A stretch of DNA of 64,000 nucleotides from Candidatus Roseilinea mizusawaensis. Its GTDB lineage: Bacteria > Chloroflexota > Anaerolineae > J036 > Brachytrichaceae. The translations under genes were made by a program, and so were the position numbers. Location of the stretch: positions 186,001 to 250,000 of the forward strand of contig JAEANN010000054.1 in NCBI GenBank assembly GCA_016841965.1, read 5' to 3'. The notes under the pieces are model-generated. The model made no database searches. It saw nothing but the letters and a program-made list of their open reading frames with translations, and was not told the origin of the DNA. Below are positions 5,020 through 23,150 of the stretch, piece by piece; position 1 is the first letter of the stretch; the number at the start of each line of letters is the position of its first letter.

Positions 5020-5493
5020 CTCAGCGCCTCGCCCGGCGCCTCGCCCGGCGCCTGTTGACTACTTTGACTTTGCGCCGGCCGATCATTGCCGGACGTGCTA
5101 TCATCTTTTTTCGGGTCGAGCGCGATGATGAACATGCTTGTGTGGGTGCGCAGGGCCATCTTCCTGCCGGCGTTGTTTCTGATTGCTTGTGGCGGTGCGC
5201 CAATCCCGGCTGAATCGTTGCCCGTAGTGCGACTGTCGCAGTTAGAACCCCTGCCGACGCAACCAGCGTTGATGGCCGGCTGGGCCTGTATGGCATGCGT
5301 GAACGCGCCGAACTGTTAGGGGGGAAATTGTCGGTCGAGTCGGCGCCGGGGCAGGGCGCCAGCGTGTTTGTCGAAATCCCTTGCGCGCAGGGCTGAGCCG
5401 CAGCAGGACTGAGCCGCAGCAGGACTGAGCCGCATCGGGCGCCACGGCAGCCCTGCCACAATCAATCCTGGGCAAATGGCTTGAAAGAACCGG
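5020..5493. other. Gene-poor stretch with a decayed kinase end and short tandem repeats
   Basis: No intact gene is visible between the Pho array and modB. From the ATG at 5125 a short frame encodes a lipoprotein-like signal (FLPALFLIACGG) and breaks off after about 65 residues. The last 43 codons of a histidine kinase follow in another frame at 5268-5396. Just after that, a 16-bp unit CTGAGCCGCAGCAGGA occurs two to three times at 5393-5435. The area looks like the result of an internal deletion followed by decay. Confidence 0.6.
5268..5396 (+). pseudogene. C-terminal stump of a NarX/DesK-type histidine kinase
   Basis: This frame reads DGRLGLYGMRERAELLGGKL, then SVESAPGQGASVFVEIP and a TGA stop. 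It is the G2-box end of a HATPase domain from the HisKA_3 kinase group: LGLxGMRERA, then SxPGxGTxV. No start codon, H-box or N-box lies upstream in frame, so the rest has been lost. The same motif occurs intact in the large sensor at 17280-21386 (SVESAPGQGTTLMLEIP), which shows what the complete form looks like. The response regulator at 7113 on the same strand may be its former partner, now separated from it by modBA. Confidence 0.8.
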
Positions 5494-6997: not shown

Positions 6998-7112
6998 AGC
7001 GCACTATCGCGTCTGCGATGGTTTGACTTGCTCCCTGAGCGTGCACGCGAAGCGCATTGTCGCACGTTCACTCGGGCGCCGCACGGGATGTGACAGTGTA
7101 AGATGCGCCGGT

Positions 7113-7784
7113 ATGTCCGACGCTTCACCTGCTCGCATTCTGTTGGTGGATGATCACAGCGTGTTGCGCGCCGGCCTGCGGTTGTTGCTCAACAGCCAGC
7201 CCGGTCTGACTGTGGTGGGTGAGGCCGGCGAGGCCCGCGAGGCGCTGACGCTGGCCGAGTCGTTGCAGCCTGATCTGATCTTGCTGGATCTGACCATGCC
7301 CGGACTGAGCGGCATCGAGGCGCTGCCGGCGCTGCGGCGTCTGGCGCCGGCAGCACGCATTCTCGTTCTCACCATGCATGACGATGAAAGCTATCTACGT
7401 CAGGCGTTGCGCAGAGGCGCCGCCGGTTACGTATTGAAGAAGGCCGCCGACAGCGAGTTGATCAACGCCATCCAGGCCGTCCTGCGCGGCGAGGTGTATG
7501 TGCACTCTGCCCTGACCCGCGCATTGTTGAACGATCTGGTCACGCCAGCAGACACTCCCTCCTACAACACTGGCCGTGATGAACTGTGGCAGACACTGTC
7601 TGAGCGCGAAGCCGAAGTGCTGCGTCTGGTGGCGCGCGGCCACACGAACGCCGAGATCGCCGAGCGGCTGTCCCTGAGCGTCAAGACAGTCGAGACATAC
7701 CGGGCGCGCGGCATGGAGAAGCTGGGGCTGCGCACGCGTGCGCAGCTAGTGCAGGCGGCGCTGGCAAAGGGCTTTCTCGAATAG
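7113..7784 (+). CDS. NarL/FixJ-type response regulator
   Basis: The 223-residue protein has an intact receiver domain: VDDH acidic pair, phosphoacceptor in LILLDLTMPGLSG, Thr in LVLTMHDD and Lys in YVLKKA. A LuxR-type helix-turn-helix follows (LSEREAEVLRLVARG, then NAEIAERLSLSVKTVETYRA). It should bind DNA as a phosphorylated dimer. The ATG at 7113 begins just before the receiver; a longer frame upstream overlaps modA and looks non-coding. There is no intact kinase beside it; the kinase stump at 5268-5396 may be the lost partner. The target is unknown; the divergent modAB genes are one candidate. Confidence 0.92.
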   Translation: MSDASPARILLVDDHSVLRAGLRLLLNSQPGLTVVGEAGEAREALTLAESLQPDLILLDLTMPGLSGIEALPALRRLAPAARILVLTMHDDESYLRQALRRGAAGYVLKKAADSELINAIQAVLRGEVYVHSALTRALLNDLVTPADTPSYNTGRDELWQTLSEREAEVLRLVARGHTNAEIAERLSLSVKTVETYRARGMEKLGLRTRAQLVQAALAKGFLE

Positions 7785-11570: not shown

Positions 11571-14500
11571 TTACTTATATGCGACAGGCATGAAGACCTT
11601 ATACGCCACGACATTCACCGTGCTGCTCAGGTCAATGCCGGTGTCGGCGTTGTCCACGTACACCTTGGGCTGATTGAGCACTTGCCCCTCCAGAATTTGC
11701 GCCTGCACGACATAGCTCAGCGTGTGTGATGCCCCACCCGGCAGGTTGCCGGCCCACGTCACTGCGTTCAGCACCGCGCGCGGTCCGAACGGCGTCGCCG
11801 GCCCACCTTCACCCGACAACAACACCACGCTGCTACCAGAGTAGTTGCCGCCGCTGGCCGAGCCGGCCACGTAGGTCGTGCCGCTGGGGATCGGCGCATA
11901 GATCAGTACGTTGTTGAGCTGTCCGGCGCCGGTGTTGGTGACCTGCACCGTGTAGGTGATCAGATTGCCCTTGCGCACCACGCCGAAGGTCTGCGTCAGC
12001 GTGCCCAGCGTGCCCGTCAGCGGCGCCGTGGCCGCCGGCGGGTTGGTGTAGGTGGCCGGCGCCTGTGCGAAGCCCACCCCGCTGACCACCGCGAACACGT
12101 TCTCAATCGCCGGCGTCAGCGAAGTCAGGGTCGCTGTGACTTGGCCGGCCGCGTTCGTCGCGCCGCCGGTCGGGCTGAAGCTGCCCACGCCGGCGAAGAA
12201 GCTCACGCTCACGCCCGGCACAGGGTTGCCGTATTGGTCGGTCACCGTGGCCACGGCCACGCTCTGGCTGATGCCGTTGGCGTAGATGAGGGCCGGCGTC
12301 AGGCTCAGGCTGACGGTGTACGGCGCGCCCGGCGTGAACGTCACCAGCGCGGTGGCATTCAGGCTGCCCACCGTCGCCGTCACCGTCGCCACGCCGGATG
12401 TGGTCGAGTTGAGCGTGTTCACCACCTGGCCGGCGCCGGTGTTCAGCGTGGCGCTACCCAGCGCGCCCAGCGTGGTGACAAAGCTCACCGCCGTGCCATC
12501 GGCCACCGCGTTGCCATACTGGTCGGTCACCGTCGCCGTCAGCGTGCTGCTGTTGCCCACAGCAAGCGTCGTCGGGGCGGCCACCAGCGTCACCGTGTAC
12601 GGCGCGCCCGGTGTGAACGTCACCAGCGCGGTGGCGTTCAAGCTGCCCACCGTCGCCGTCACCGTCGCCACGCCGGATGTGGTCGAGTTGAGCGTGTTCA
12701 CCACCTGGCCGGCGGTGGTGTTCAGCGTGGCGCTGCCCAGCGCGCCCAGCGTGGTGGCGAAGCTCACCACCGTGCCATCGGCCACCGCGTTGCCATACTG
12801 GTCGGTCACCGTCGCCGTCAGCGTGCTGCTGTTGCCCACAACAAGCGTCGTCGGGGCGGCCACCAGCGTCACCGTATACGGCGCGCCCGGCGTGAAGGTC
12901 ACCAGCGCGGTGGCGTTCAGGCTATCCACCGTCGCCGTCACCGTCGCCACGCCGGCGATGTTGCTCGACACCGTCGCGGTCGCCACGCCGCCGAGGGTGG
13001 TCGCGGTGACGGGCGACACGCTGCCCAGGCTGGTGGTGAAGGTCACCACCGTCCCATCGGAGGCCGGATCGCCGTTGGCAATCTGCACGGTGGCCGTCAA
13101 CGTCGCGCTGTTGCCGACCGGCAGGCTGGTCGGGTCGGCGCTGAGCGTGATCGTGGTGGGCAGGGCCGCCTCGAAGTCATAGAGCGTGATCTGATCGCCC
13201 ACGCCCACGCGCAGGCCGTCGGCGTAGCCGGCGCCGGTCGAGCTACCGCCGCCCACGCGGATGCCGATGAAGCCCAACGGGGCGCCAAGCAGATTGTCGG
13301 GATGGATCGCGGCGTTGGGATAGGCGGCGATCAAGTCCGTGAAAGTACAAGTATTGCTCAACGAATTGCAGGCTGTGGCCCCAGATAGCGTGGTGTACCA
13401 GCGCGGCGTCGGGTCGTTGCGCGCATCCACGATGTGCCATGTGTCCGGCGCTAGGCTGCTGTCCGGCGAGTACACCAGCCGGCCGCGGAAGCCGGTGTTG
13501 CCGTCGGTCACGTCGTCGTCCCAGCCGATGTTGATGTAGGGCGTCTGCCCGTTGCTGGCCGGGAAGCGCAGACGATACTCGAAGGCCGTGATGTCGCGCA
13601 GCAAGGCGCCGGTGAAGATCGGCGCGGCGTACATGTGTCGCCAGGTTACATCGGTGAGCACGAAGCGCGCGCTGGCTTCGCCCAGCGTGGGGGCCGGCGG
13701 GGGCAGCACAATGTCGAACGGGATCGGGAAGACGCCGGGGCCAACCGTCTCGGTGATGTACCCCCAGCCGTTGGTCAGCACCGGCGTGACGGTGATCACG
13801 GTCGTAACCGGCGTGATGGTGTTGGTGAAGGTGCAGGTCACGGCGCCGCTCAACGTCAGGCCGATGGCGCTGCCGCCTGTGTCGCCGGTCGAACAGGCGG
13901 ATGCAGCGACGTAGCCGAGCTTGGCGGTCTCGCTGATCAACGTCGGGCCTAGGTCGAGGCCGCTGAGGGTGGCCACGCCGCCGGCAGCGGGCAAGGTGAA
14001 GGCCAGCGTGCCGGTGGACAGGGTTACAGTAAACTGCCAGCTTGTGGTGGGCGTGATCGGCCCGCTGACGATCTTCTCGATCACGAGCGTTGCGCCGGCG
14101 CAGGGGCCGTTCAAGTCGTTGCTCAGCAACCACGGGTTGTAGTCCACGTTGGCCGAGACGCTATCGCCGCTGCCGGGGCCAACGCCGGACGGGCCGCTGG
14201 CGGCGCCGTACCAGTTACACTCAGCCAACACCTGGGCGGTGCTCTGGTTATAGACGCCGGCAGTATTGCTGACGATGGCGTTGCGCGCCAGGTTCAGCCC
14301 CGGCTGGCTACCGAGGAAGACCACCCCCGTGATGTTTTGGGCAAATGTGTTGAGCGTGGCAGTGAGCGGCGTGGGCGCAGTGCCGTTCTCGAAGCTCAAG
14401 CCGGCGCCGTTGCTCAACACATGATTGGCAGAGACGGTAGTGGTCACATATTGGACGAAGATGCCTGCGTCGGCAGCATTGGAGATGATATTGCCGGCGA

Positions 14501-16802
14501 TCAGCCCATCGGACGCGCTGCTGAGATGAACGCCGCGTTGGCCGCCCAGCACGGTGTTGGTCAGGGCGTGAAGCGCACCGATGCCATGCGCATAGATGCC
14601 GCGCTGGGCATGGCCCTGGATGGTGTTCGAGATCACCTGCGCCGTGCCCAGGCTGGTCGCCTCGATGCCTTCCTGGCCGCCCAGCACGGTGTTGGCCAGC
14701 GCGTCAAGCGTGGACATGCTGTAGCCATAGACGCCTGGCCCGGTGTGCCCTTGGATCGTATTCGAGAGCACGTGTGCGGCGTTCATGTTGCCCACCGCGA
14801 TGCCGGCTGCGCCGCCTTGTGCGTCGAGGGCATTGCCCGCAACCATAGCAGTGTTCACCGAGTCCACATACACGCCCCAACCGCCATAGCGCTCGATCTG
14901 GTTATTGGTCACGGTGATCACGCCGAGGTTTGTCGCGCTGATGCCGTGCGCATGGCTGATGATGATATTGCCATCCAGCCGGAGATCCGTGCCGCCGCTT
15001 AAGAAGAGGCCCACGCCTGGGCTGTCGCTAATCGTGTTGTGGGTGATCGTGACGTTGCTGCCAGGCGAGACCCGAACCGCCCCGCCGGTGGACGAGACCC
15101 CTTCGACCAGGTTACCTGCGATCACCAGATCGGTGTCCCCTGCCCCGGCCCCGATGAAAATGCCCTCGCCCCCGGTTTGCTTGACCGTGTTGTTGATGAT
15201 CTGGTTGCCGACGCCGGGCAACGAAGCATTGATAATCTGAATGCCGCGATCGGTGGGATGATTCAGGGCCACGTTGCCGGTGATCAAGTTGCCGCTGTTG
15301 TTGAGGGCCGGCGAGGAAATCAGCGGGGGCGCATCGGGCGCGAAGTAGATCGCATAGGACGCATTGTTCTCGATGAGATTGTTCGCCAGCACGTTGTTGT
15401 CCGCGCCGGCCATGCGCACGCCGGCGATGCCGTAGCGCATCTGATTGCCGATGATCTGGTTCTGGTCGGCGAAGATGCCCACCACCGCATAGCCACTGGC
15501 GGTGAACACGTTGCCGCTGACCAGCACGTTGGTGATCGGCGTGAGCGCGCCGCCGCTCATGCCCACGCCGACGCTGGTGAGGACGTTGGTCAGCGTGAGC
15601 ACGTTGTTTTGGATCACGTGGCTGTGCCCGCCGAGCAGCGCCACGCCTTGGGCGAAGTTGCTGATGTGCACGTTGCTCACCGTCAGGCCGGTCACGCCGA
15701 AGGTGGTGGTGATGCCCACGTCGCTGCCCGTGCCGACGATGGAAGTGTTGCTGACAGTGACGTTGCTCTGCGACACCACCACGCCCGGCGAAAGCGACTG
15801 GATCACGGTTTGGCCGGGGCCGGCGCCGATGATGGCGACCGGCTTTGTGACCGTGATCGTGCCGGTGTACACGCCGGCCGTCACGCTGATGGTGTGGCCG
15901 GCTTGGGTGGCCGGGTCGTCAATGGCCGGCTGGATGCTCAGATAGCCGCGCCCGGTGTCCAGATTGAGCACGCGCCCGCGGTAGTACTTGATGCCGTTGA
16001 AGAACAGGTCAGAGCCAGAACCGCTGCCGGCATTAGCGTTGAAGAGGCGCAGCTTGGCGATCGGCCCTGGATAGTTGCGCAACGCGCCGCTGACGGTGGC
16101 GCCGGCGCTATCCACCAGCCGCGTCAGGGTGGCCTGGTATGTCGTGGCGGTGGTCAGCGTGATGACGACGCGCACCCCTTCGCGGGTGAAAGCGACGCCG
16201 GAGAGGGTCGGCGTATCGCCGTGCACGGTGTATTGCATGGCGCCCCCGACAAAGTAAACCTCCAGCAAGTCTTGATCGGCGGCATTGCGCAGCGCGAAGC
16301 CGACCGTCCCGCCTGACTGCACGTCGCCGTTGTCCATGTAGATCTCGAACACGCTGCCGGGCGTGAACGGTTGAAGGAAGTCGCGCTGGGCGCTGGCCGT
16401 TTGCCCGCTGTTGGCATACAAGCCCCAGGCGCGATTGCCCGGCATTGTGTTCACGTCGCCGTCGGTATTGCTATCGCCCCCCATACCATTGTTGCCGGTC
16501 GAGTTGCCGACGAAGTGGCCATTCTGGGACGGATTGGGGCTAGTGGTGTTCAACGCCCACGGCCCCATGCCGAAGCCGCCGTTGTCGCCGGTTTGCCAGT
16601 TGCCAGGCGGGTCGTAGGTTGCATCACTGGCGGTGTCCTGGGCCGTTGGGGGTGGGAGCTGGGCATGGGCGGTGCGCACACCCACAACCAGCGCCGCCAG
16701 GCTCAGCAGGCCGGCCATCACAATAACTCGTGCAGAAAGTTCCACTGCTCGCTTGTGCTGATGTTCTGAGCAACACGCATCACTCGATCTTGGCTTAAGC
16801 AT
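11571..16802 (-). CDS. Giant secreted beta-helix/Ig-repeat surface protein
   Basis: About 1743 residues. The ATG at 16802 is preferred over the one at 16820 because AGGGAGGAAGAG lies just before it. A signal peptide ends near VGVRTAHAQ. After an N-terminal jelly-roll-like part come many parallel beta-helix repeats (about residues 300-930, NosD/PbH1 style: NNxI and NTI turns), a prealbumin-like domain (TLVIEKIVSGPITPTTSWQF), a globular region, four invasin-type Ig repeats, and a DUF11-like domain near the end. Two Ig repeats are almost identical 279-bp units (from 12322, 12601 and 12880). It ends in YKVFMPVAYK, like the C-terminal tails I associate with Chloroflexota secreted proteins. Adhesion or cell-surface structure is inferred. 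The substrate is unknown. Confidence 0.85.
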   Translation of the reverse strand: MLKPRSSDACCSEHQHKRAVELSARVIVMAGLLSLAALVVGVRTAHAQLPPPTAQDTASDATYDPPGNWQTGDNGGFGMGPWALNTTSPNPSQNGHFVGNSTGNNGMGGDSNTDGDVNTMPGNRAWGLYANSGQTASAQRDFLQPFTPGSVFEIYMDNGDVQSGGTVGFALRNAADQDLLEVYFVGGAMQYTVHGDTPTLSGVAFTREGVRVVITLTTATTYQATLTRLVDSAGATVSGALRNYPGPIAKLRLFNANAGSGSGSDLFFNGIKYYRGRVLNLDTGRGYLSIQPAIDDPATQAGHTISVTAGVYTGTITVTKPVAIIGAGPGQTVIQSLSPGVVVSQSNVTVSNTSIVGTGSDVGITTTFGVTGLTVSNVHISNFAQGVALLGGHSHVIQNNVLTLTNVLTSVGVGMSGGALTPITNVLVSGNVFTASGYAVVGIFADQNQIIGNQMRYGIAGVRMAGADNNVLANNLIENNASYAIYFAPDAPPLISSPALNNSGNLITGNVALNHPTDRGIQIINASLPGVGNQIINNTVKQTGGEGIFIGAGAGDTDLVIAGNLVEGVSSTGGAVRVSPGSNVTITHNTISDSPGVGLFLSGGTDLRLDGNIIISHAHGISATNLGVITVTNNQIERYGGWGVYVDSVNTAMVAGNALDAQGGAAGIAVGNMNAAHVLSNTIQGHTGPGVYGYSMSTLDALANTVLGGQEGIEATSLGTAQVISNTIQGHAQRGIYAHGIGALHALTNTVLGGQRGVHLSSASDGLIAGNIISNAADAGIFVQYVTTTVSANHVLSNGAGLSFENGTAPTPLTATLNTFAQNITGVVFLGSQPGLNLARNAIVSNTAGVYNQSTAQVLAECNWYGAASGPSGVGPGSGDSVSANVDYNPWLLSNDLNGPCAGATLVIEKIVSGPITPTTSWQFTVTLSTGTLAFTLPAAGGVATLSGLDLGPTLISETAKLGYVAASACSTGDTGGSAIGLTLSGAVTCTFTNTITPVTTVITVTPVLTNGWGYITETVGPGVFPIPFDIVLPPPAPTLGEASARFVLTDVTWRHMYAAPIFTGALLRDITAFEYRLRFPASNGQTPYINIGWDDDVTDGNTGFRGRLVYSPDSSLAPDTWHIVDARNDPTPRWYTTLSGATACNSLSNTCTFTDLIAAYPNAAIHPDNLLGAPLGFIGIRVGGGSSTGAGYADGLRVGVGDQITLYDFEAALPTTITLSADPTSLPVGNSATLTATVQIANGDPASDGTVVTFTTSLGSVSPVTATTLGGVATATVSSNIAGVATVTATVDSLNATALVTFTPGAPYTVTLVAAPTTLVVGNSSTLTATVTDQYGNAVADGTVVSFATTLGALGSATLNTTAGQVVNTLNSTTSGVATVTATVGSLNATALVTFTPGAPYTVTLVAAPTTLAVGNSSTLTATVTDQYGNAVADGTAVSFVTTLGALGSATLNTGAGQVVNTLNSTTSGVATVTATVGSLNATALVTFTPGAPYTVSLSLTPALIYANGISQSVAVATVTDQYGNPVPGVSVSFFAGVGSFSPTGGATNAAGQVTATLTSLTPAIENVFAVVSGVGFAQAPATYTNPPAATAPLTGTLGTLTQTFGVVRKGNLITYTVQVTNTGAGQLNNVLIYAPIPSGTTYVAGSASGGNYSGSSVVLLSGEGGPATPFGPRAVLNAVTWAGNLPGGASHTLSYVVQAQILEGQVLNQPKVYVDNADTGIDLSSTVNVVAYKVFMPVAYK
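12322..12930. repeat. 279-bp tandem repeats encoding Ig-like domains
   Basis: The segment starting GGCGCGCCCGG(C/T)GTGAA recurs at 12322, 12601 and 12880, exactly 279 bp (93 codons) apart. The first two full units are nearly identical base for base, differing at a handful of positions. This points to recent duplication or gene conversion, and copy number may vary between strains. Confidence 0.85.
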
Positions 16803-16820
16803 ATGCTCTTCCTCCCTCAT

Positions 16821-17279: not shown

Positions 17280-20200
17280 ATGAAGCACGTTGACACAATT
17301 CCAAAGCACAGACACTCCGTCACACTCGGCGATGTATTCGGGCCGGCGGCCGCCCGGCTTCCCCTTCCTGGCGCGCCATCATTGCACATCCTCGACCCAG
17401 ACCTCGCCGGCGAACTCCTGACATCGTCCACAGCGCTGGCCACCGAGGTGTCCCACGTGTTGGGCGACGCCGCGACCGATAGCGCCCCCGATGTGGGCGC
17501 TGCTCCGATGGTTGTTTTGAGCGCGCCCGACACGACAATCCGATATTGCAGTCCTGCCCTCGCATCCCTGCTCGGCTTCGAGTCGGTGGCGGACTTGCTC
17601 AACACCGGCCAGGGCCTCAACCTGCTGCCCCCCAACGAACGGCAGGAAGGCATGGATGACCTCCAAAACATCCTGTCAAGTGGGGGCGCAGCCGGCGTCA
17701 CCTATCACCTGACCCACAAGAACGGCACCCTGTGCCCGGTCGAGATTCACGCTTCGGCGCTGGCGGACGCCCACGGCTCGATCCACGGCATCATCAGCAT
17801 CATCCGAGACGTCCCTAGTCGCATCCCTCCTCAGACGCCGATGCCGGTCGATGCGACGATGTCAGCCGACTGGCACATGGCGTGGGGACATCTGTTCGAC
17901 CAATCACCAATCGGCATGGTCGTCGCCGGCCTCGATGGACGCTGTCTGGCGGCAAACCCTGCTTTCTGCCGCATGATCGGCTATTCCGCGCAGGAACTGG
18001 CCGGGCAGCATTTCCATGCCTTCAGCCACCCGGACGATGTCGCCATCAGTGTGGAAAAGGGCCGCCAAATGATCGAAGGCAGCCTGTCGTCGTTCCAGAT
18101 CGAAAAGCGCTATCTACACAAAGACGGACACACGATCTGGGTCACTCTGAATGCCTCTGTCATTCGCAGTCCCAGCGGCGAAGCTCTCGCAGTGTTGTCT
18201 CAGATTCAGGATGTTACCGCGCACAAACTGGCCGAGCGCCAGGCGAAGATATCTCTGGAACGCTATCGGGCCATCGTCGAAGATCAGACCGAGCTGATCT
18301 GTCGTTACCTGCCCGACACCACCCTGACATTCGTCAACGAGGCGTATTGCCGTTACTTCGGATACCAGCGCCACGAGTTGCTGGGCCGGCGCTTTGCCCA
18401 GCCCGATCTCATCTCTGCCGAGGCGCTGGCCGAGGTGCAACAACGCCTGAGCACACTGAGCGCCGACAATCGCCTGCTTGTTCACGAACATCCTGTCCGG
18501 CGCGCCGACGGCGCCCTGCGTTGGATGCAGTGGGTCAACCGCGCCATCGTGGATGACAGCGGGCAAGTCGTCGAGCTTCAGGCGATTGGCCGCGACATCA
18601 CCGAGCGCAGGGAAATGGAACAAGCCCTGCGCGAAAGCGAGGCGCGTTACCGCGCTCTGGTCGAAACTGCCGCGGACGGAATTCTGATGGCCGACCTGTG
18701 CGGGATCATTCGGTTTGCCAATCCCCAGGCAGCCCGTTTGTATGGCTACGAGAAGCCGGCCGAGATGATCGGCAAATCCATTCTGGAGTTCACGCCGCCG
18801 GCGGAGCGTCCGGCTGTGTTAGAGCGAGCAAGCACGGCCCGCGCACAGGGCATGCTGCAGAATGTCATTCATACCCAAGTACGCTGCGATGGCGCGATTT
18901 TCATTGCAGAAGGTAGCACTGCGCTGATTCACAGCGCCCACAACGCACCAGATGCCTACCTGATCGTGGTGCGCGATGTGACCGAACGTCAACGGGTCGA
19001 ACGCGCCGAGCGCGAGCAACGCCTGCTGGCCGAGGCCCTGCGCGACACAGCCGCTGCCCTGGCCGGCACCCTGGATTATGAGGAAGTTCTTGACCGTATT
19101 CTGGACAACGCAGGGCGTGTGATCGCTCGTGACACCACGCATGCCATCTGCAGCAACATCATGTTGCTCGATCCCCCCTGCCCGCTTGGCGCTGCGCTGC
19201 ATGGTTCAGCCGGCGTTGTAGCCTGCGTCGTGCGAGCCAGAGGATACCCCGCCGATGCTACAGGCCGGCCTGCCTTTAAGCCCGAACTCCCTGTGTCCCA
19301 GATCAACGGTTTCTGCCACATGATCGCCTCAGGCGAGTCGCTGTTGGTGCGCGATACACATGCCGACCCCACCTGGGCGCACTACGCCGAGACAGAATGG
19401 CTACGTTCTCATGTCGGCGCCCCCTTGATCGTCAGGGGCACCGTGCTGGGCTTCCTGAATCTCGACAGCGCCATACCAGAGCTTTTCAGCGCACATGACA
19501 CCAGCCGGCTGCGCGCATTTGCCGACCAGGCCGCCGTTGCCATCTCCAATGCGCAACTGTTTGAATCGCAGCGGCAGAGCGTGGCGCGCCTGACCCGGGT
19601 TCATCAGGCCGGCCTGGCAGTGGCCCAGACGACATCTATGGATGATCTGTTGTCCACCATCGCCCGTCAGGCTGTCCAACTAACCGGCGCCGATGCCGCT
19701 GTGCTCAGCCGCTTCGACGGCGTCGGGCATCTGATCGGCGCGGCAGCGGAGGGCCTGCCCCAGTCGATGATTGGCATGCGCGTGGCGCTCGGCGAAGGAT
19801 TGAGCGGCCGCGCTGCAGCCTTGCGCACCGCGCAGCGGGTCAACGATTATCACAAATGGGGACATCACGTCGATATGCCGAGTAGCCTGGGGTTTGAATC
19901 CGGCGCCGCAGTCCCGCTGGTCTGGCAAGACCGGCTGATTGGCGCGCTGGCCGTCATCAGCCGGCAACATACTGACATGACGGACGAGGATGTCAACATG
20001 CTGGCGCTGTTTGGCACCCTGGCCGCAGCCAGTCTGGCGTTACGCAGCGCACTTGACGACGCCCGCCGGCGCGAGTCAGAGGCGCGCGATCTGGCCCGCG
20101 AGCTGATCACCGCCCGCGACGACGAGCGCAACTGTATTGCCGAACGGCTGCACAACGCGATTGGGCATCTGTTGTTGGCGCTACAAAAAGCAATCCAGTC

Positions 20201-21386
20201 CAACCCTCCTTCGCCAGGCGCCAATGGCGGCGGCAGCGGAACACTTCAGACCCACCTCAGCTTGTTGAACGAAGTCAGCGAGCAGGTGCGCGCACTGGCA
20301 ATGGATTTGGACTCCCAGGTGTTGGAGCAGTCCGGCATCGCCGCAGCCGGCCGGCGCTACGTGGAACGCATCGCTGCCTCGGTGCGCCGGCGCATCCACT
20401 TTCACGTCACCGGCCGCGTCCGGCGCATGCCCATCGAGATCGAGCGCGTCCTTTTTCGCGGACTGAAAGAGGCGCTGACCAATGCGCTGCAACATGCGCA
20501 GGCCGGCGAGATCTCCGCCCAGTTGCACATCGGTTCTCGTTCAGCTCGATTGACGGTGCAGGATGACGGCATCGGCTTCGATTCATCAATCCTCGACCTG
20601 GACACCCACCCGGCCCTGTCATTTGGATTGGCCGGCCTACGCCGCCAGGCAAGCTTGTTGGCCGGCGACTTCAGCGTCGAGAGTGCGCCGGGCCAAGGGA
20701 CTACGCTCATGCTGGAGATTCCCTTGCCGGCGGATCCACCGTGCGATGGGCAGCGTGTGCGCGTCCTCATCGCAGACGCGCACGATGTCACCCGCCGCGG
20801 GCTGGTTGCCACCTTGCACGAGACCGGCGAGTACGAATGCGTCGAAGCCCGTGACGGCCTGTCCGCAGTGCACCTGGCCGAGATAAGCCGACAAGATGTG
20901 GCCCTGATCAGCGTCGACCTGCCCGAACTGAACGGAATCGAAGCAGCGCGGCAGATTGTGGCCACGATGGAGAACACGGCTGTCATCATGCTATCCTTCG
21001 ATCACAGCCAGCAGGCTGTGGAGCAAGCCAGACGAATTGGCGCGCGCGGATTCCTGCTCAAGTCGGCCAGCAGCCAGGAGTTGTTGCAAGCGTTGCGGCG
21101 CGTGCGCGCCGGCGAGATGTTTTACAGCCCCGGCCTGGCCGGGGCCATTCGTAGCCTCCAAGAGGAGCCGGATGCTCACGATGCCTTGGCGTCACTCACA
21201 ACCCGTGAACGCGAAGTCCTCGAATTGATCGTCAACGGCTATCGCAACAGGCAGATCGCTGAGCGGCTGGGGATTAGCGTGCGCACAGTCGAGGTGCATC
21301 GTCGCAACATTATGGACAAGCTCGGTGCAAGAAGCCTGGCTCAACTGATCAAACAGGCTTCCCGCCGCGACGAGGCGCACCTGTAA
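17280..21386 (+). CDS. PAS4-GAF2 histidine kinase fused to receiver and LuxR domain
   Basis: This 1368-residue soluble protein holds a whole two-component pathway. It has four PAS domains (about 78-180, 200-315, 325-440, 450-570), two GAF domains (590-765, 775-925), a HisKA_3/HATPase kinase (940-1150), a receiver (1160-1275) and a LuxR-type HTH (1300-1365). The ATP site looks intact (DDGIGFD, GLAGLRRQA). The H-box reads H958-N959-A-I-G-H963, where the family has H-D/E-xxx-Q. In the receiver the phosphoacceptor Asp is Ser1211 (ALISVDLPELNG) and the acidic pair is Asp1166-Ala1167. Ser/Thr and Lys sites are kept. Phosphorylation-independent DNA binding is therefore likely. No membrane segments are seen, so the stimulus is probably cytoplasmic. 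Confidence 0.93.
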   Translation: MKHVDTIPKHRHSVTLGDVFGPAAARLPLPGAPSLHILDPDLAGELLTSSTALATEVSHVLGDAATDSAPDVGAAPMVVLSAPDTTIRYCSPALASLLGFESVADLLNTGQGLNLLPPNERQEGMDDLQNILSSGGAAGVTYHLTHKNGTLCPVEIHASALADAHGSIHGIISIIRDVPSRIPPQTPMPVDATMSADWHMAWGHLFDQSPIGMVVAGLDGRCLAANPAFCRMIGYSAQELAGQHFHAFSHPDDVAISVEKGRQMIEGSLSSFQIEKRYLHKDGHTIWVTLNASVIRSPSGEALAVLSQIQDVTAHKLAERQAKISLERYRAIVEDQTELICRYLPDTTLTFVNEAYCRYFGYQRHELLGRRFAQPDLISAEALAEVQQRLSTLSADNRLLVHEHPVRRADGALRWMQWVNRAIVDDSGQVVELQAIGRDITERREMEQALRESEARYRALVETAADGILMADLCGIIRFANPQAARLYGYEKPAEMIGKSILEFTPPAERPAVLERASTARAQGMLQNVIHTQVRCDGAIFIAEGSTALIHSAHNAPDAYLIVVRDVTERQRVERAEREQRLLAEALRDTAAALAGTLDYEEVLDRILDNAGRVIARDTTHAICSNIMLLDPPCPLGAALHGSAGVVACVVRARGYPADATGRPAFKPELPVSQINGFCHMIASGESLLVRDTHADPTWAHYAETEWLRSHVGAPLIVRGTVLGFLNLDSAIPELFSAHDTSRLRAFADQAAVAISNAQLFESQRQSVARLTRVHQAGLAVAQTTSMDDLLSTIARQAVQLTGADAAVLSRFDGVGHLIGAAAEGLPQSMIGMRVALGEGLSGRAAALRTAQRVNDYHKWGHHVDMPSSLGFESGAAVPLVWQDRLIGALAVISRQHTDMTDEDVNMLALFGTLAAASLALRSALDDARRRESEARDLARELITARDDERNCIAERLHNAIGHLLLALQKAIQSNPPSPGANGGGSGTLQTHLSLLNEVSEQVRALAMDLDSQVLEQSGIAAAGRRYVERIAASVRRRIHFHVTGRVRRMPIEIERVLFRGLKEALTNALQHAQAGEISAQLHIGSRSARLTVQDDGIGFDSSILDLDTHPALSFGLAGLRRQASLLAGDFSVESAPGQGTTLMLEIPLPADPPCDGQRVRVLIADAHDVTRRGLVATLHETGEYECVEARDGLSAVHLAEISRQDVALISVDLPELNGIEAARQIVATMENTAVIMLSFDHSQQAVEQARRIGARGFLLKSASSQELLQALRRVRAGEMFYSPGLAGAIRSLQEEPDAHDALASLTTREREVLELIVNGYRNRQIAERLGISVRTVEVHRRNIMDKLGARSLAQLIKQASRRDEAHL

Positions 21387-21726: not shown

Positions 21727-22767
21727 CTACCCCGGCTGCAAGACAACCTTGACCAGATCCTCTGGTTGCGTCACCAGTCGCTCGAAAAACCGCGCCCCCT
21801 CAGACAGTGGCGCAAGATGGATCATATCGCGCACACGCACCTGACCCGACGCAATCAGCTCTACGGCGCGCTGGAAGTCGTCGTCGGTGTAGGCATAGCT
21901 GCCGCGAATGTGCAGCTCTCGATTGACGATGGGGAGGAAATTGAGTGTCGTTTCGCCCTTGCCCAGCCCGATCAACACGAGCGTGCCGCCCGGCGCAAGC
22001 GCGGCCACGCCCTGCTGGCGAGTGACCGGCGCACCGGCGGTATCCACCACGAATTCGGCGCCCCATCCGCCGGTGAGCGCTTTGACCTGCTCGACCACAT
22101 CTTCCTCGCCGCTGTGCAGGGTGTGTGTCGCGCCCAGCCCGCGCGCCATTTCCAGCCGCCGGGCCACCAGATCGGTGACAATGACGGTAGACGCGCCGGC
22201 CAGCCGCGCCAGTTGTGCGGCCAGCAGACCTTGCGGGCCGGCTCCCAGCACCACCACAGTCCGCAGCAGCGGCGGCGTCATCGTCCTGAAGACGTGCGCT
22301 TGCACGGCCAGCGTCTCGGTCATCGTCGCGTCCAGATCGCTGACCTGCACCGGCAATTTGAACACGCGATCGGCCGGCGCGCAGACAAGATCGGCAAATC
22401 CGCCGGCGCGCTCGATCCCCAGAACCGCCATATTCGGACAGATGTTGGTCTGGCCGGCGCGGCAGGCCGGGCACACACCACAGGCAATCAGCGGCTGCAC
22501 CACCACGCGGTCGCCAGGCGCCAGGCTGTCATGTGCGGTGCGGCGCACCTGCTTGCCCACCTCGACCACGTGGCCGGAAAACTCATGCCCCATGATGAGC
22601 GGAATGTGGGCGTTGCGGCGCGGGCTATGGCCCACGTAGCCGCTCAAGTCCGAGCCGCAGATACCGCAGGCATGCACGCGAATCAAGACCTCGCCGGGGC
22701 CGGGCTGTGGCGCAGGCACATCCTCAACTGCGAGTTGGCGAGCGCCGTGAAAGACAAGAGCTTCCAT
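21727..22767 (-). CDS. Zinc-dependent medium-chain alcohol/sorbitol dehydrogenase
   Basis: The protein has 346 residues from the ATG at 22767. The catalytic zinc motif is HACGICGSDLSGY with GHEFSGHVVEVG. Structural zinc cysteines lie in CGVCPACRAGQTNIC. The Rossmann motif VVVLGAGPQGLLAAQLA binds NAD(P), and the sequence ends with the family's C-terminal lobe. It belongs with threonine/sorbitol/galactitol-type dehydrogenases; the exact substrate cannot be read from sequence. It follows a 122-residue hypothetical gene by 14 bp on the same strand and probably shares its transcript. The frame remains open further upstream, but those residues are antisense-like and overlap that gene. Confidence 0.92.
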   Translation of the reverse strand: MEALVFHGARQLAVEDVPAPQPGPGEVLIRVHACGICGSDLSGYVGHSPRRNAHIPLIMGHEFSGHVVEVGKQVRRTAHDSLAPGDRVVVQPLIACGVCPACRAGQTNICPNMAVLGIERAGGFADLVCAPADRVFKLPVQVSDLDATMTETLAVQAHVFRTMTPPLLRTVVVLGAGPQGLLAAQLARLAGASTVIVTDLVARRLEMARGLGATHTLHSGEEDVVEQVKALTGGWGAEFVVDTAGAPVTRQQGVAALAPGGTLVLIGLGKGETTLNFLPIVNRELHIRGSYAYTDDDFQRAVELIASGQVRVRDMIHLAPLSEGARFFERLVTQPEDLVKVVLQPG

Positions 22768-22781
22768 GCACCTATTGTCGC

Positions 22782-23150
22782 TCAGTCTGCGTCGAGCAGC
22801 AGCAAATTGAGCGTCTCGCGCGCGGCCGGCAATGTCTGCATGGCAGCCCAATTGTCCACCACGTCGGCGGCCCGCTCGATCGCCAAAAGCTGCGCCAGCG
22901 GATCCTCTTGCGTCGGCTCGCGCCCGATGCGCGTGCGCGGCCAGTATGCGGCCAGCCGGGCTTCGAAGGCAGGCCACGCTGCCAGCAGCCGGCGCCGCAG
23001 GTGAGCGTGGGCAGCCTCATCGGCCGGCGTGGCCTGGCCCCCGCGATACACGTGCACGATCAACGCTTCCAGGTCATCCCAGTGCTGCACAAATTCGATC
23101 AGCGCCGGATCGGTCACACGCGCGAGCAAAGATTTCGTAAAAGGGTTCAT
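22782..23150 (-). CDS. Small helical protein of unknown function
   Basis: I do not recognise a family. The frame gives 122 residues from the ATG at 23150 (MNPFTKSLLARVTDPALIEF). It is mostly predicted helix, has no signal peptide or membrane segment, and contains WDDLEALIVHVYRGGQAT and a Leu-rich end, LNLLLLDAD. It lies 14 bp upstream of the alcohol dehydrogenase on the same strand, so the two are probably co-transcribed. A start 14 codons earlier is possible but has no conserved look. Confidence 0.65.
   Translation of the reverse strand: MNPFTKSLLARVTDPALIEFVQHWDDLEALIVHVYRGGQATPADEAAHAHLRRRLLAAWPAFEARLAAYWPRTRIGREPTQEDPLAQLLAIERAADVVDNWAAMQTLPAARETLNLLLLDAD

Follow-up and report, generated by a model that had tools for sequence, protein, structure and literature searches.

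Domain organization of a fused kinase-regulator gene

We analyzed a 64-kb window of the Candidatus Roseilinea mizusawaensis genome (G000, contig C34; 3.86-Mb genome), the window being the whole stretch of DNA that was examined, and characterized a gene within it that joins a sensor histidine kinase to a response regulator. The gene is one open frame with an ATG start at 17280..21386 on the forward strand and encodes 1368 amino acids (aa), in which a Pfam scan identified four PAS domains, two GAF domains, HATPase_c, Response_reg and GerE. The receiver was recognized at 66.8 bits (Response_reg, PF00072; cut-off 30.2) and the GerE domain at 75.5 bits. HisKA_3 was not reported by Pfam in the window protein at E<=0.01, and it scored 22.4 and 23.5 bits, under the cut-off of 24, in the orthologues of G132 and G002; in a profile alignment the DHp and CA domains of the window protein align with unfused HisKA_3-type relatives. 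The receiver followed by a GerE/LuxR helix-turn-helix of full-length fold is the NarL/FixJ layout, and the presence of kinase, receiver and DNA-binding domain on one chain is that of a hybrid two-component system (HTCS). No NCBIfam equivalog scored above cut-off among the matches listed for six proteins. The features are as follows.

17280..21386, +: fused PAS4-GAF2-kinase-receiver-LuxR gene, 1368 aa (open frame, Pfam)
17502..18989, +: four PAS domains, residues ~75-570 (Pfam PAS, four stretches)
19047..20036, +: two GAF domains, residues ~590-919 (Pfam GAF_2, two stretches)
20082..20414, +: DHp helices, HisKA_3-like, with H958, N959, H963 and K970 (profile alignment; two long helices in the model)
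20151..20168, +: H-box His958-Asn959...His963 (translation, codons)
20187..20189, +: Lys970 (H+12), at the position of the receiver-docking Leu200 in DesK (alignment; PMC5231405)
20415..20729, +: ATP-binding CA domain, N/G1/G2 boxes intact (Pfam, alignment)
20757..21119, +: pseudo-receiver domain (Pfam Response_reg; model pLDDT; Foldseek to the DesR receiver)
20775..20780, +: Asp1166-Ala1167, second Mg-binding acid lost (translation, alignment, codons)
20790..20792, +: Thr1171, putative pocket for the kinase docking residue, matched to DesR Leu13 by spacing (alignment)
20910..20912, +: Ser1211 (codon AGC) at the phosphoacceptor site (translation, codons)
21192..21353, +: LuxR/GerE DNA-binding domain (Pfam GerE)

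The predicted structure of the receiver and LuxR domains had a mean predicted local distance difference test score (pLDDT) of 93.6 and a predicted template modelling score (pTM) of 0.72, with all five beta-alpha units present, and Foldseek placed the receiver model on DesR receivers at 1.2-1.5 A over ~130 residues. Judged by this model, the receiver fold is kept. The longer kinase-receiver-LuxR model (pLDDT 89.6, pTM 0.56), in which the relative domain placement is unreliable, contains a pair of long DHp helices, and ~11 residues link the ATP-binding domain to the receiver.

Active-site residues of the window protein

The kinase H-box reads His958 (CAC), Asn959 (AAC) and His963 (CAT), so that the His of the H-D-xxx-Q/H motif is present and its D is replaced by N959, and the alignment showed intact N, G1 and G2 ATP-binding boxes. 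In the receiver, Asp1166 (GAC) is followed by Ala1167 (GCG), and Ser1211 (AGC) occupies the phosphoacceptor site; both the second Mg-binding acid and the phosphorylatable Asp are thus missing, and Ser1239 (T/S site) and Lys1261 (K site) are retained. A preliminary description of this DNA had named the six H-box and receiver residues and had called the ATP-binding motifs and the LuxR domain intact, all of which agreed exactly with the translation, the codons and the domain matches. It had also counted His963 as a sign of loss. This was dropped because the same His occurs in 12 of 128 unfused kinase records and the motif is written DxxxQ/H in PMC11502775, which makes His a natural variant at the Q position. 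The alpha4-beta5 dimer surface that it had proposed to look for is likewise not the expected one, since receivers of the NarL/FixJ type dimerize via alpha1-alpha5 (PMC12632262).

Asp1213 (D+2) was considered as an alternative acceptor and rejected, since unfused receivers vary at D+2 and there is no structural reason for it. An acid was found at D+2 in 5/6 family orthologues (D, D, E, E, D; N in G024).

Distribution and residue states of the fused gene

The fused gene was found in seven of the 28 genomes of the family, divided between a first genus (G000, G002, G001) and a second (G018, G022, G024, G009); the G001 copy comprises only the N-terminal 524 residues and runs into the contig end. 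Two wider searches, covering 298 and 396 genomes of the class, recovered the fusion in a second family as well, in G132 and its congener G109. The gene spans two contigs in G009 and is split at contig ends in G109, and we take each to be one gene. Among the matches listed, G000 had no second gene with the same fusion. In most other matches in the class, a stop separates the kinase gene from an adjacent regulator gene, and G171 (726 aa) and perhaps G203 (710 aa) carry independent single frames with canonical motifs. A plasmid search returned only matches below 60%.

The residue states are listed below in the order G000, G002, G018, G022, G024, G009, G132.

G000: H+1 N, H+5 H; receiver acid pair DA; phosphoacceptor site S; T/S site S
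G002: H+1 N, H+5 H; receiver acid pair EG; phosphoacceptor site D; T/S site S
G018: H+1 A, H+5 Y; receiver acid pair DS; phosphoacceptor site E; T/S site S
G022: H+1 E, H+5 Y; receiver acid pair DS; phosphoacceptor site E; T/S site A
G024: H+1 D, H+5 S; receiver acid pair DP; phosphoacceptor site D; T/S site A
G009: H+1 D, H+5 F; receiver acid pair DH; phosphoacceptor site D; T/S site A
G132: H+1 D, H+5 G; receiver acid pair DD; phosphoacceptor site D; T/S site T

The receiver Lys is K in all seven, and the T/S site of G002, which appeared as L in the profile alignment through a local shift, is S in direct alignment. G109 had D at H+1, G at H+5, and D, T and K at the covered receiver sites. 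For comparison, 116 unfused receiver-LuxR records of the same subfamily and 128 unfused kinase records were taken from loci fetched by similarity to the window protein; identical open reading frames were removed, and one gene in two loci may count twice. The 128 exclude five loci with fragments of the fused family (L014, L019-L022), and the 116 exclude L118, which holds part of the fused G009 gene. The second acid, the phospho-Asp and T or S were each present in 116/116 unfused receivers, and the Lys in 115/116. Unfused kinases carried Asp (126), Glu (1) or a gap (1) at H+1, and Q (103), H (12), S (6), others (6) or a gap (1) at H+5.

We found that the second Mg acid is gone in all six family orthologues that cover it (A, G, S, S, P, H) and is present in the canonical receiver of G132. 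The phospho-Asp is replaced in three of these six (S, E, E), as is the acid at 959 (N, N, A). The window protein (Ser1211), G018 and G022 (both Glu) are therefore aspartate-less receivers (ALRs), and G002, G024, G009 and G132, which have Asp, are not. A lone decayed copy and a sequencing error, which the preliminary description had kept as alternatives, were both rejected because the second acid is absent from all six orthologues and the AGC codon of Ser1211 lies at least two bases from either Asp codon. The observation that it would have taken as refutation, close homologues with Asp at 1211 and an acid at 959, was half borne out: at each of these sites half of the orthologues retain the residue, and the loss of the second acid is family-wide. 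The coordinated loss that it described did not stand site by site either: the nearest relative, G002, has Asp at 1211 yet Asn at 959, and in G024 and G009, which keep Asp at both sites, the losses are confined to the second Mg acid, the Q and the T/S residue.

The kinase-receiver docking face

When DesK is bound to DesR, its Leu200 (H+12) inserts into a hydrophobic receiver pocket lined by Leu13, Ala16, Leu17 and Leu20, with Gln193 (H+5) and Ser196 (H+8) on the same helix face as Leu200 (PMC5231405). We found Lys at H+12 in 8/8 fused kinases, including G109, and in 0/128 unfused records, which carried L/M/V/I/F (119), Q (4), Y (3), D (1) or a gap (1). On the receiver side, the position four past the second acid, which we equate with DesR Leu13 judging by how the active-site residues are spaced, was Thr in 5/6 family orthologues (Met in G024, and Leu in G132), compared to V/I/F/L/M/A in 116/116 and Thr in 0/116 unfused receivers. 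This is probably the DD+4 position that is placed among those with the most changed couplings in pseudo-receivers (PMC12632262). Because the Lys is also found in G132 and G109, whose receivers are canonical as far as they are covered, the docking change appears to predate the loss of receiver chemistry. The Lys at the kinase docking residue across the fused clade is a new finding.

Phylogeny and selection

A tree was built from 33 of 98 non-redundant rows, which had been kept from 108 of 115 pairs, with the trait columns omitted. The six fused sequences formed one clade (support 100/99), inside which the canonical G132 sat with the second genus (99/95), and forcing the two family genera together was disfavoured (approximately unbiased (AU) test; p = 0.028). 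If this placement of G132 is right, the second Mg acid was lost twice independently, once per genus, which a single test at this p value indicates rather than proves.

The receivers of G018 and G022 both lack the second acid and the Asp, yet their nonsynonymous divergence (dN) was far below the synonymous (dS), with dN 0.13 and dS 1.23 for the receiver and dN 0.08 and dS 0.58 for LuxR. The PAS domains of G000 and G001 gave dN/dS of ~0.11-0.37, and dN was well under dS in all domains tested. By these rates the fused gene is under purifying selection.

A putative phosphorylation-independent regulator

We lean, with somewhat better than even confidence, towards a hybrid two-component protein that has turned into a phosphorylation-independent pseudo-receiver regulator. 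A phosphorylation-independent mode had been proposed before, and it is retained here as the best reading, though not by way of coordinated loss, because the loss of the second acid is lineage-wide, the gene is constrained and the docking face is changed. The second Mg acid binds the metal directly, and some 80% of pseudo-receivers have a non-acidic residue in its place (PMC12632262). The H-box change, which the preliminary description had read as a loss on the kinase side, bears on the matter differently: DxxxQ is the phosphatase motif of HisKA_3 kinases (PMC3510030, PMC5231405), and its loss alone does not kill a kinase that keeps His958 and the ATP site. It would fit a receiver that is no longer phosphorylated.

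In the proposed mechanism, a DesK/NarX-type sensor kinase would have gained its NarL-type partner regulator as a C-terminal fusion, after which phosphotransfer would have become dispensable and then been lost. The kinase part would remain a dimer with its ATP-binding domain, and the fused receiver would retain its fold. PAS/GAF input would shift the conformation of this dimeric core, probably in a nucleotide-bound state with ATP as a ligand, and because the receiver and LuxR domains are tethered shortly after the ATP-binding domain, the change could set the pairing of two LuxR domains on DNA with no need for Asp phosphorylation. For Bacteroides HTCSs it has been argued that being tethered to a dimeric kinase brings the DNA-binding domains together in pairs (PMC11253607). 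More tentatively, and with distinctly less confidence, the order of events may have been loss of the docking face, then of the second Mg acid (probably twice), and finally of both phosphoacceptor and H-box acid. What remains would be a one-component regulator whose kinase core serves as an ATP-dependent conformational switch coupled directly to LuxR DNA binding.

Several observations weigh against this interpretation. Asp is kept at the phosphoacceptor site in 3/6 orthologues (G002, G024, G009), and His958 and the ATP site are retained in all fused kinases covering them, so some phosphorylation could persist. G002 (L024/L152) has a frameshift at the receiver-LuxR junction that puts LuxR in another frame, and G014, a fifth genome of the second genus, holds only a receiver and LuxR remnant with two in-frame stops; the fused gene can thus be lost. 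However, the G002 frameshift may be an assembly error, because G002 is a metagenome-assembled genome with a stated contig coverage of ~4. Identity between the G000 and G002 proteins is 56% in the fused receiver and 73% in LuxR, compared to 89% and 93% in the two control orthologue pairs, the only clean ones from a reciprocal comparison; the kinase parts (DHp 60%, CA 73%) are nearer their controls (70%, 81%). By this comparison the output half (receiver and LuxR) is less constrained than usual in the first genus. It was also noted that the G014 remnant (L195, L199; G014:C95:9795-10274) has Glu at the phosphoacceptor site.

The conservation of His958 and the ATP boxes would also suit a kinase acting in trans on another canonical regulator, with the fused pseudo-receiver autoinhibitory or ligand-binding, as in ShkA or CikA, whose pseudo-receivers inhibit their own kinases (PMC12632262). 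The genome has several unfused NarL-type regulators, including one at window 7107-7784 with no intact adjacent kinase. We regard this explanation as unlikely: the Lys at H+12 should impair docking to other NarL-type receivers too, the retained LuxR domain gives the protein its own output, and no conserved partner regulator stood beside the fused gene across the clade among the matches listed. A weak but real phosphorylation in cis, in which tethering raises the local concentration and relaxes selection on the docking and Mg residues, would account for the Asp of G002, G024, G009 and G132 and for the faster divergence of the fused receiver than of controls, and phosphorylation can survive substitution at DD, T or K (PMC12632262). 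It is nonetheless improbable, rather more so than action in trans, as the acceptor is Ser or Glu in the window protein, G018 and G022 and the direct Mg ligand is absent in all six. That the gene is simply decaying, with the fused regulator on its way out, appears very improbable. The G002 frameshift, the broken G014 remnant and the rapid divergence of receiver and LuxR point that way, but open frames of 1078-1368 aa persist in G000, G018, G022 and G024, dN stays well under dS, the LuxR motifs are conserved, and the frameshift has the doubtful status given above.

Gene neighbourhood

In both genera, the fused gene is followed directly by a convergent zinc-type dehydrogenase of the medium-chain dehydrogenase/reductase (MDR) family (window 21727-22977, -; L151:10484-11506, -). 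Upstream and divergent is a 1749-aa repetitive protein (window 11571-16820, -), common to G001 (~68% identity over the aligned part) and not seen upstream of the fused gene in G002; in the second genus, a ManC-like nucleotidyltransferase (L151:6064-7149, +) lies just upstream on the same strand, almost abutting the fused gene. The neighbourhood was rejected as a clue to the target, and no target is claimed, because the two MDR dehydrogenases are only ~32-35% identical, the family is very common and the upstream gene differs between the genera. Elsewhere in the window, a remnant of a kinase ATP-binding domain, ~35 residues around the G2 box, was found at 5280-5384 (+), ~1.7 kb ahead of the canonical NarL-type regulator at 7107-7784 (+), and is likely the broken partner kinase of that regulator.

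Comparison with known systems

DivL of Caulobacter is not known to have the His that the window kinase retains as His958, and neither DivL nor ShkA is known to have a DNA-binding output. The DivL pseudo-kinase and ShkA are also repurposed kinase and receiver modules (PMC4211667, PMC7010744). The DesK-DesR and NarX-NarL systems belong to the same kinase and regulator subfamily, and the unfused relatives described here are such adjacent pairs; unlike them, the window protein is fused, has an altered DxxxQ and a Lys at the DesK Leu200 position, and lacks the second Mg acid. The HTCSs of Bacteroides have an AraC-type output, whereas the window protein has LuxR. They likewise carry sensor kinase, receiver and DNA-binding domain on one chain, but with a membrane sensor and receiver phosphorylation in place of PAS/GAF sensors and a receiver that has lost its chemistry (PMC11253607).

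Fused kinase-regulators are already known (PMC11253607), and ~6% of bacterial receivers are pseudo-receivers (PMC12632262). Like these (PMC12632262, PMC4395418), the window receiver keeps its fold and Pfam match and lacks active-site residues, the second Mg acid being the usual loss and Glu at the Asp site also common. Neither a kinase, pseudo-receiver and LuxR fusion nor a graded series was found in the titles and abstract openings searched, a coverage outside which most subscription journals lie. A 2025 review terms the on/off switching of pseudo-receivers a mystery (PMC12632262). In the clade described here, several stages are represented in one fused architecture, the receiver of G132 being canonical and that of the window protein having neither the Asp nor one of the Mg acids, so that the step at which output ceases to depend on phosphate should be open to direct measurement. 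The clade also suggests that a two-component pair can be released from phosphotransfer by fusion of its domains. Two things set the window receiver apart from other pseudo-receivers: it shares a polypeptide with a HisKA_3-type kinase that has changed as well, and the residue losses accumulate by degrees within a single fused clade that still includes a canonical member. Neither pseudo-receivers nor fused systems are new in themselves, but the stepwise series within one fused clade is.

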